Shown here piece by piece: positions 60,983 to 64,000 of a stretch of DNA of 64,000 nt. The notes under the pieces are model-generated. The model was given only the letters and a program-made list of their open reading frames with translations. It made no database searches and was not told the DNA's origin. Position numbers and translations under genes: made by a program. How positions within the stretch are numbered: position 1 is the stretch's first letter; every line of letters starts with the position of its first letter. Origin of the DNA: Sphaerochaeta sp. (GTDB taxonomy: Bacteria > Spirochaetota > Spirochaetia > Sphaerochaetales > Sphaerochaetaceae); contig JAGYOG010000001.1 in assembly GCA_018399495.1 (NCBI GenBank), forward strand, positions 62,001 through 126,000. The letters are read 5' to 3'.

Positions 60983-62053
60983 TCAGGATCCCAGGCACAC
61001 CCCTATATCCTTCGCACAGGTGATCTGGTAGTGATCCTTGGGTATGTATTTGACAGGACCTGCAACTTTCTCCAAGGGAACTGTCACTATCTTGTTGTTT
61101 TGGAATGCCATCATGTTCCCCCACTTGTCCTTCATGATCTCCTGTGCACAACGATTACCCAGTGATGTTGAGAGCAATCGATCGTAGGGAGTTGGAGTAC
61201 CACCACGCTGTACATAGCCAAGAATGGTTACCCTCGCTTCCCTTCCCGTGAGACGCTCCAAGTGGGTAGCTAAAAGTGGGGTGCGGGTCTTGAGCATCTC
61301 CTCAACCTTATCCTTGCCACCATCCTCTTCAAGAACCTTTGCCATAGTAGTGGATATAGCTCCCTCAGCAACTACTACAATACTGAACTTCTTCCCTTCC
61401 CTGGTTCGTCTGAGGATTGCATCAGCGACCACCTGTTCATCATAAGGAACCTCAGGGAGCAGAATGACATCAGCACCACCGGCAAGACCGGCACCCAAGG
61501 CTAACCAGCCGACCTTGTGGCCCATTGTCTCTAGGATAATGATCCTATGGTGACTGCTAGCTGTTGTATGTAACCGGTCGACTGCCTCGGTGGCTATCAT
61601 CATCGCCGTATCATAGCCAAAGGAAACATCTGTATACATTATGTCATTGTCGATGGTCTTGGGAAGTGTAAGCACATTCAACCCTGCTTTGGCCAAGCGG
61701 TAGGAGTTCTTCTGCGTTCCCCCTCCCCCAAGGCACACCAACCCACTGAGATGATTCGAGTGGTAGTTTTCTACAATGACATCAGTCATATCCATGATTT
61801 TTCCGCCTACCGGCATTTTATGGGGCTTGTCACGGCTGGAACCGAGAATCGTTCCACCCCGTGTGATAATACCAGAGAGTCGTACATCATTGAGTTCAAC
61901 AAATCGGTTCTCCATCAAACCACGATACCCATCAAGAAACCCTATCAAGGTGTAACCACCTTCATGCAACAATGTTTTTCCTACCGCACGTATCGCTGAA
62001 TTCAATCCAGGAGTATCTCCTCCAGAGGTTAGAATCCCGATCAACTTACTCAT
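60983..62053 (-). CDS. pfkA: 6-phosphofructokinase, phosphoryl donor uncertain
   Basis: Phosphorylates fructose-6-phosphate. The 356 aa protein has [33 protein letters not shown] and [14 protein letters not shown]. In the donor site, the usual GGDGS is GGGGT (111-113 = G, G, T) so the Mg-binding Asp of ATP enzymes is Gly111; Gly112 is as in ATP enzymes, but position 132 is Lys, as in pyrophosphate-dependent enzymes. MGR is MGH. So ATP or pyrophosphate dependence cannot be settled. Follows the ParA-like gene after five bases. Confidence 0.9.
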
Positions 62054-62058
62054 CGATA

Positions 62059-62835
62059 TTACTCCTTTTTCTCAGAACGCCCACTCGGTGAACGCTCTAT
62101 CAGAAATGGTACCAGCTCTTCGTACAAACCACGGAAGGCAAGAGCACTTTTCCCCTTTGGATTGCTTGTTACTACCGGTTTCTGTATCTCACCCATTTTC
62201 TCTATCTCACTAGCGAAAGGGATCACACTTTGCAATGCCTCGCTTCTGTGCAAAAGATCCAATGCTGTCTTCACTTGTAGCTTTTTTCTCCTGTCGAGCA
62301 TGGAAACAACAAGATGCACCCTCGTATCCTTCTGCTGTAAACGTTCCAGCTCACCCCGCAATTGGTCATAGGCAAGTACCGCAAAGGGAGTGGGGACAAC
62401 CGGAACCAACAGCATATCAGAGGCATACAGTACATTTTCACTGACTAGGCTCATGGTAGGGGAAGCATCGATGATGACCAGGTCATACGTGGATCTCAAC
62501 TCCTCCAGTCGTTTTTCCAACCGATGGTGTGAGTGCTTCTTTGCATCAAAAAGAATGGAAAGATAGCGATAAGCCATAGAAGAAGGCAGTACATCGAGTG
62601 AGGAGAAACTGGTGGCCTGAATCTGCTTTTTCAGCTGCTTCCCTCCCTTCACCAATGCTCGAGCATTGTGGCTCTTCTTTGGCTTTACATCCAGCAAGTA
62701 GCTACTTGAGCCCAAGGGGTCAAGATCGACCAACAAGGTTCGTTGTCCGGCCATCGCAGAGAGCACTGCCAGATTCACACTGATGGTGCTCTTGCCTACT
62801 CCCCCCTTGATGCTGTATACGGCCAGTGTTGTCAT
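62059..62835 (-). CDS. ParA/MinD-like ATPase
   Basis: A 258 aa deviant-Walker ATPase: [10 protein letters not shown] (8-17) with the signature lysine, [13 protein letters not shown] (the D.DPQ-type segment), and [12 protein letters not shown] as Walker B. Such proteins position plasmids, chromosomes, carboxysomes or other cargo by gradients on the nucleoid. There is no ParB and no centromere-like repeat nearby. The start at 62835 follows GGAGG by seven bases and overlaps the CHAD gene by 4 bases, tying it to polyphosphate-related functions. Confidence 0.88.
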
Positions 62836-63818
62836 ACCATCTCCTCCCAATATTCACTACTCACTTGTCGATACTCACCCGCAAGATGTTTTACTTCCTT
62901 TTCTAAGTCAACCAATATCCTCAAGGATTCTATTGGTGCCTTTTTTTGCTTCAAAAGTAGATCCTGAAGTAGGATAAGATCATGCCATCGACCTAAAATC
63001 TTCTCGAGGGAATAGAGTTGCTTATCCTGTTTTACTGATGCCATCTCACTCACTGCAAGCAAAGAACGTACCCAACGCAGCACCTTGTGCATTGCCTGCA
63101 CATCCCTCTCTGAGTGTACCTTGTGAACTGCCTTAACCAATTTTCTGTGAGCCTTTGCTACCAGAACCTTTGGATGATACCCTGAGAAGGCAAACCGGTT
63201 CTGCTCTAAAAGTTCCTGAAGATCAGAGACAAAGGAGGCAGAAAGGGTATCCTTCAGTTTTACAAGATGTTTCTTGAACTTCAGCCGTTTCTGCTCTTGC
63301 GCCAGGCCTCTCTCGTCCAACAACTGAAATAGTACCTGATCATCACGAACTTTCCCTGCATAGTTCACCAGTTTCTTGAGCAATCGTTTCAAATCTTTCT
63401 GTCGCTCTTTGGAAAGTGTTTTCCCAATACGTGGAACTATCATATAGAGATTGCACAACGCTGTTCTGAATGCCTGCATCGATTTCATGTCTTCCAGATT
63501 TGCAATATGTTCAGAAAGGATTGCAACCTGTTTCTCACACCAACCAATGATGGGACTGTTGCACATCTCCCTGAAAGCCGGCACGGTAAGCAGTCCTTCA
63601 AGTTGAGCCTGGGTCTCAGAAAGTGGAAAAAGTTCCAGACGCAACTCCTCAGGAAAGTATCTCACTTCCCCTACAGGCTGTTTGTTCAGAAACAGTGTAC
63701 CCTCAAGCGGGATGGATGCTTCCATCCAGGCAATTCGATAGGGAGAGAAAGCCTGTTCCCAAGTTGCAGGAGCAGACTGGGTTTCGAATAACAGATAGTA
63801 CGGGCCGGTATTGTTCAT
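62832..63818 (-). CDS. CHAD-domain protein, probable polyphosphate binder
   Basis: A 328 aa, His/Lys/Arg-rich helical protein. Residues about 100-310 match the CHAD fold: an AFRTALCNLYMIV helix, LKRLLKKLVNYAGKVRDDQVLFQLL, and a second half with AMHKVLRWVRSLLAVSEM and LEKILGRWHDLILLQDLL. CHAD domains bind polyphosphate and target polyphosphate granules. N-terminal 90 residues are of unknown fold. ATG overlaps the stop of the preceding gene (ATGA), and the ParA-like gene overlaps its end. Confidence 0.85.
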   Translation of the reverse strand: MNNTGPYYLLFETQSAPATWEQAFSPYRIAWMEASIPLEGTLFLNKQPVGEVRYFPEELRLELFPLSETQAQLEGLLTVPAFREMCNSPIIGWCEKQVAILSEHIANLEDMKSMQAFRTALCNLYMIVPRIGKTLSKERQKDLKRLLKKLVNYAGKVRDDQVLFQLLDERGLAQEQKRLKFKKHLVKLKDTLSASFVSDLQELLEQNRFAFSGYHPKVLVAKAHRKLVKAVHKVHSERDVQAMHKVLRWVRSLLAVSEMASVKQDKQLYSLEKILGRWHDLILLQDLLLKQKKAPIESLRILVDLEKEVKHLAGEYRQVSSEYWEEMV

Positions 63819-64000
63819 ATAGTTTCCTCCAACTGACTCTGATACCAGAGATACAAATCCCGTTGTGCACGAGGCTCATTGTTTTCACCAGTCTGAAGAC
63901 GCTGGTTGTAATTTTCTTCATGAATACTGAAAGAAGAGGCGGTGTCATTCCAGTGTGCCTGCAGGAACACCTCCAGTTCTTCCTTGATCCTGTCATCAAA
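63815..64000 (-). CDS. ppk: Probable polyphosphate kinase 1, C-terminal end only
   Basis: The last 61 codons of a gene that enters from the right edge. The residues (DDRIKEELEVFLQAHWNDT, then YNQRLQ and AQRDLYLWYQ) resemble the C-terminal end of PPK1, where the final helix bundle has an L...WxDN..A pattern and a closing AQ..LY. The following CHAD gene is a common PPK partner and strengthens the call. With so short a piece the assignment stays tentative. Confidence 0.5.
   Translation of the reverse strand, partial: FDDRIKEELEVFLQAHWNDTASSFSIHEENYNQRLQTGENNEPRAQRDLYLWYQSQLEETI

Follow-up and report, generated by a model that had tools for sequence, protein, structure and literature searches.

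A gene for a CHAD-domain protein and a gene for a ParA-like ATPase form a conserved unit that is wider than the four-gene operon in which we encountered it, at the end of a 64,000-nucleotide stretch of Sphaerochaeta sp. DNA (hereafter the window). We propose that the two proteins probably make up a two-component cargo system that works on polyphosphate without ParB and through which granules would be spread or shared along the nucleoid. The link of the CHAD-ParA pair with polyphosphate is strong; granule positioning is inferred.

The ppk1-CHAD-parA-pfk operon and its conservation in the genus

The four genes lie on the minus strand in the tight arrangement that the first-pass annotation had described. 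The stop codon of ppk1 overlaps the start codon of the CHAD gene by 4 nt (ATGA), CHAD and parA are joined by the same kind of stop/start overlap (again ATGA, 4 nt), and 5 nt separate the parA stop from the pfk start. The gene at the edge, of which the window contains the 3' end (63815..64000, minus strand), had been taken for a polyphosphate kinase gene. This is indeed the case, as the full ORF encodes a complete PPK1 of 687 aa that scores 652 bits against the NCBIfam equivalog TIGR03705 (polyphosphate kinase 1, cut-off 466). The extent first assigned to the operon has to be corrected, since the window spans contig positions 62001-126000 and the bulk of ppk1 lies beyond its edge, up to about contig position 127878 (L002:5816-7879).

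Among the 26 genomes of the genus, 12 possess ppk1, and in all nine where the locus is assembled from ppk1 to pfk the order and strand of the four genes are the same. Two of the remaining three (G108 and G111) end at a contig edge and the third, G104, differs. In this 81% complete genome (locus L053), a ppk1 with an in-frame TAA leads straight into a pfk devoid of its N-terminus, and CHAD and parA are missing; the arrangement is due either to a deletion or to an assembly fault. A CHAD match was found in none of the 14 ppk1-negative congeners. The four-gene order emphasized in the first-pass annotation thus extends beyond one genome, but it is not itself the conserved unit: this is CHAD-parA, and pfk goes with ppk1.

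A search with a single CHAD sequence recovered only 10 of the 139 genomes of the family because CHAD evolves fast, and profile and ParA searches were needed. In the genus, dN/dS is about 0.1 for both CHAD and ParA, and 0.06 for PFK; the first two are faster-evolving than PFK, yet both are under purifying selection. In the sister genus, G090 keeps ppk1-CHAD-pfk with a decayed parA. The parA genes of this genome (L012) and of the congener G109 (L062) both carry an internal deletion and a frameshift, ppk1, CHAD and pfk being intact, and both deletions stop just ahead of the MLDRRKK motif. The breakage of parA indicates that the gene is dispensable in these two lineages.

The CHAD-parA pair recurs across phyla

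In the distant genome G212, from the phylum sample, CHAD adjoins a ParA gene away from ppk1. This ParA scores 132 bits against that of the window, and at most 83 bits against unlinked ParAs including Soj. The GTDB genomes were then scanned with an alignment of CHAD-linked ParAs and the best 80 relatives were taken. A CHAD gene lies within 600 nt of the ParA gene in 44 of these 80; as a rule it precedes parA in the same orientation and overlaps or abuts it. Among the best 80, these CHAD-adjacent loci spread over about a dozen phyla: they belong to Chlorobiota, KSB1, Latescibacterota, Desulfobacterota, Calditrichota, Gemmatimonadota, Ignavibacteriota, Verrucomicrobiota, Binatota, Acidobacteriota and Gammaproteobacteria, with further examples in MAGs named Actinomycetota and Deferribacterota and in one Methanophagales archaeon. 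Most of the loci come from MAGs, so that isolated odd placements carry little weight. On the contig of the Methanophagales archaeal MAG (L113), the genes are ordered ppk1-CHAD-parA. PPK1 is present at 16 of the 44 CHAD-adjacent loci, and at one CHAD-parA-PPK1 locus (L128) pfk is found downstream as well. This linkage across phyla rules out a chance adjacency of CHAD and ParA.

The CHAD-linked proteins group with their unlinked relatives in one clade (support 99/99) of a maximum-likelihood tree built from 108 ParAs. The window ParA falls in this unnamed clade, apart from Soj/ParB and from the other ParAs of the family. The 36 relatives of the best 80 that are not CHAD-adjacent come mainly from Methylococcaceae, Halomonas and Marinobacter. 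A CHAD gene is located elsewhere in 23 of the 29 genomes with an unlinked ParA that were checked, of the long type in 15 of them, and in the other six no CHAD was detectable. We also considered whether the CHAD-negative members of the clade could be BcsQ proteins encoded next to cellulose synthase; this was rejected, as Pfam identified the neighbors as glycogen phosphorylase, MgtE, tRNA-editing and other proteins. In Methylococcaceae, unlinked members of the clade (L117, L137, L138, L142 and L162) stand beside a gene for glycogen phosphorylase or for the magnesium transporter MgtE.

The ParA-like ATPase

The parA gene (62059..62835, minus strand) encodes 258 aa that match PF13614 (AAA_31, 1.8e-34). 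The protein displays a deviant Walker A motif, KGGVGKS, with the signature lysine of the ParA/MinD family in addition to the AAA_31 fold, and it matches PDB chains of ParA/Soj with up to 108 bits. Its best NCBIfam match, ParA_partition, is far under the cut-off, and the BcsQ model, among the better curated matches, reaches 74 bits, also under its cut-off. No curated NCBIfam model attains its cut-off on any of the four clade members checked. The clade is characterized by the motifs YSIKGGVGK[TS] and M-x-D-R-R-K-K, in which the D-x-R of Soj is enlarged to a basic D-R-R-K-K. No obvious C-terminal membrane-targeting helix was seen in the CHAD-associated clade.

No ParB is encoded near the operon, as had been pointed out from the start; the only ParB_N match of the genome sits on another contig, C12, beside Soj (L014). 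The window ParA resembles Soj of the ParABS system by its deviant Walker A ATPase domain, its length and its fold. It differs by the lack of an associated ParB, the genome having a separate Soj/ParB pair, by its clade, by YSIKGGVGK in place of NQKGGVGKT and by the DRRKK motif. The separate clade and the lack of ParB at the locus rule out a ParA for chromosome or plasmid partition. One could still argue that an ordinary orphan partition ParA came by accident into a ppk1 operon, given that the Acidithiobacillus counterpart has been annotated as a plasmid partition ParA (PMC10892726) and that ParA_partition is the best, if far sub-cut-off, NCBIfam match. We hold this to be extremely improbable: the ParA belongs to a clade distinct from the Soj of the same genome, ParB is not nearby, and the CHAD linkage in many phyla refutes the idea in practice.

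The CHAD protein of the window and its long relatives

The product of the second gene (62832..63818, minus strand; 328 aa) is identified as a CHAD-domain protein by its AlphaFold2 fold; it is the proposed cargo adaptor, in a reduced form. Its helical CHAD part covers about residues 89-327, and some 70 N-terminal residues lack a resolved structure. The PF05235 score is weak (22.1 bits, under the curated cut-off of 25.6), but the orthologue of the congener G101 scores 63.6 bits. In addition, the six best PDB matches of the AlphaFold2 model (pLDDT mostly 75-92 in the CHAD part) are without exception CHAD structures, 6qva, 3e0s, 6qv7, 6qv5 and 6rn5 among them, all with a probability of 1.00 and a TM of about 0.5-0.6. 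The CHAD identity given in the first-pass annotation is therefore upheld, and the model predicts a two-bundle helical CHAD fold despite the sub-cut-off Pfam score.

The CHAD protein of Chlorobium tepidum (CtCHAD, 6QVA) has been crystallized with polyphosphate occupying its pore; it binds the polymer with dissociation constants of 1.9 uM and 147 nM, and mutation of six residues (H253, R256, R260, R296, R418 and Y419 in CtCHAD numbering) lowers polyphosphate binding (PMC6537752). Compared at these positions, the window protein retains two of the six, R256 and R296, and has lost the equivalents of H253, R260, R418 and Y419. H253 is additionally retained in sibling CHADs, and all six residues in the G101 orthologue. 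The C-terminal tail and the greater part of the N-terminal module are missing from the window protein as well. With these losses the window CHAD and its operon are a reduced example of the CHAD-ParA type, and the short divergent CHAD of this genus may have a weaker grip on polyphosphate. As a reduced form, it would be a poor first choice for experiments.

The long ParA-linked CHADs are directly connected with the solved structure. That of Pelodictyon luteolum matches PDB entries 3E0S, 6QV7 and 6QVA with 321 bits, and the 3E0S sequence itself was found at 100% identity in one genome of the same family, which we took as C. tepidum. In that genome the CHAD gene overlaps the ParA gene (L216), as it does at 30 of the 34 loci of its set. 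The polyphosphate-binding CtCHAD is consequently of the ParA-linked type.

Compared by Foldseek, the N-terminal domain of the long CHADs resembles triphosphate tunnel enzymes as well as full-length YgiF; no Pfam family matches this TTM-like domain. In the N-terminal 200 residues (L110-L177), YDTFDWRLY, ILNxDxKTV and PxRGY are conserved; the ExExK motif at the start of the domain gave a match in only one of 30 long CHADs. The long ParA-linked CHADs end with an F-rich tail (F..F......F..LF) that occurs in none of 26 control CHADs, and this tail is a candidate for a contact with ParA. A basic N-terminal peptide is the usual activating element in partners of ParA/MinD ATPases (PMC10241942). On inspection, none of the ParA-linked CHADs has a clearly basic disordered N-terminus such as would be expected of an McdB-like adaptor.

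A putative ParB-less system for polyphosphate granules

That the CHAD protein could be the adaptor between the ATPase and the granule, as first suggested for this operon, has gained weight. With a pairing that recurs across phyla, a single ParA clade and no ParB, no other candidate for the adaptor comes close to CHAD. In our proposal, PPK1 would make polyphosphate, and the resulting granule would be bound or coated by the CHAD protein. The ParA ATPase, in its ATP dimer form, would sit on nucleoid DNA, from which CHAD would release it locally. As a result, the granules would be spread along the nucleoid or shared at division, in the manner of carboxysomes with McdA/McdB. The direct contact between CHAD and ParA, the DNA binding and the ATP-driven movement in this scheme are inferred. 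The scheme is based on the linkage of the two genes, the co-occurrence of the ParA with CHAD in genomes, the single ParA clade, the linkage to ppk1, a locus devoid of ParB and the identity of CtCHAD with a ParA-linked CHAD; the TTM-like fold and the F-rich tail common to the long CHADs, and the purifying selection on both genes, also speak for it. The loss of four of the six residues, of the N-terminal module and of the tail in the window CHAD, the broken parA of G109 and G090, the lack of a clearly basic N-terminus, the 36 of 80 relatives that are not CHAD-adjacent and the six genomes with no detectable CHAD count against it. The broader idea of an ancient, phylum-spanning ParA subfamily dedicated to polyphosphate granules, which would position and partition them with a TTM-like-CHAD adaptor, stands in our opinion an even chance of being correct.

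The main rival to positioning is a regulatory role in polyphosphate synthesis. ParA would then be a switch acting on the assembly of CHAD on the polymer, or on PPK1 activity and granule number, with no movement along the nucleoid. This would agree with the frequency of ppk1 as third partner of the pair, with ParA relatives such as BcsQ that work with biosynthetic enzymes (the BcsQ model giving its sub-cut-off 74 bits here), and with the two lineages that dropped ParA and yet keep ppk1 and CHAD. We consider it unlikely, since the D-R-R-K-K motif and the lack of an obvious membrane-targeting helix fit a nucleoid-bound ParA/McdA, and since it is the polymer itself that CHAD binds in the crystal structure (PMC6537752). 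Even less probable in our view is a passive tether between granule and DNA, like AlgP or PhaF, in which ATP would control assembly only and no gradient would drive spacing: a conserved Walker A ATPase would be superfluous for this purpose and CHAD shows no other DNA-binding module, although AlgP, the only named granule positioning factor, is thought to be such a DNA tether (PMC9239181, PMC13052382).

Another question concerns the genus rather than the pair as a whole. Its CHAD could have been repurposed and no longer bind polyphosphate, the window operon being a decaying or redirected remnant. The missing residues (four of six), N-terminal module and tail, the sub-cut-off Pfam score and the broken parA in G109 and G090 would all be understandable on this basis. 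On the other hand, dN/dS values of about 0.1 for CHAD and parA in the genus, the strict co-occurrence with ppk1, a CHAD part that carries net positive charge and the preservation of all six residues in the congener G101 speak against a remnant, and we see repurposing as a rather doubtful explanation. We favor the two-component cargo system, of which the window would hold a reduced version.

Comparison with known systems

A parallel can be drawn with McdA/McdB, where a ParA-type ATPase works with one cargo-bound adaptor in the absence of ParB and parS, and where the adaptor and ATPase genes are adjacent, often beside the cargo's own genes. Here too, a ParA-type gene adjoins the gene of a cargo-binding adaptor across lineages (44 of the best 80 relatives). 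However, McdB is small and disordered, whereas CHAD, to which a TTM-like domain is often attached, is folded and binds polyphosphate; moreover, the proposed cargo is a polymer granule and the activity of the system is a predicted one. Phosins coat polyphosphate granules. The window protein shares the CHAD fold with the CHAD proteins and phosins CtCHAD, PptA and YgiF, and CtCHAD (6QVA) is itself ParA-linked. In contrast, most control CHADs have neither a ParA neighbor nor the C-terminal tail, and the window CHAD has lost most of the mutation-tested binding residues.

AlgP of Pseudomonas aeruginosa deals with the same problem, how polyphosphate granules are spaced along the nucleoid, but it is a histone H1-like DNA-binding protein and no ATPase. 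Its DNA-binding tail is believed to anchor the granules to DNA (PMC9239181, PMC13052382). According to a 2025 review, granule positioning is an open question: AlgP is the only named factor, the Caulobacter proteins are unidentified, and neither the need for ATP nor the proteins that space the granules are known (PMC13052382). The CHAD-ParA pair would offer a concrete and testable ATP-driven candidate for this placement machinery. A group of orphan ParA ATPases would thereby acquire a probable partner and cargo, and CHADs of the ParA-linked type a function in the cell. If true, bacteria and some archaea would have an ATP-driven means of passing a mineral-like storage organelle on to their daughter cells.

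A 2024 paper described a folD-ppk-parA-CHAD cluster in Acidithiobacillus, in which ParA was called a plasmid partition protein (PMC10892726). The adjacency in itself is therefore not new in Acidithiobacillus, where ppk, parA and CHAD are neighbors as in the window; that report differs in that it concerns one genus and contains neither a positioning hypothesis nor a subfamily analysis (PMC10892726). In the literature searched, no paper combined "CHAD domain" with "ParA family", an earlier mention in older CHAD papers being possible. Within the ParA cargo systems, what we propose as new is the adaptor and the putative cargo.

The pfk gene

The last gene of the operon (60983..62053, minus strand) encodes a 6-phosphofructokinase of 356 aa (PF00365, 1.3e-93). 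Its mixed ATP/pyrophosphate donor site had been noted previously, and the residues are indeed visible (GGGGT / PKTIDND); however, curated models name the enzyme ATP-dependent, and the donor site adds little. Adjacent ppk1 and pfk genes also exist, in either order, in lineages without CHAD or ParA, which rules out pfk as a member of the positioning unit: pfk is a partner of ppk1, not of parA. In distant relatives (L017-L019), a histidine phosphatase gene (His_Phos_1) lies between pfk and ppk1, and these three genes are a recurring polyphosphate neighborhood. The next gene after the operon in the window, on the same strand, encodes a Fic/DOC family protein (PF02661; 59760-60815, minus strand).
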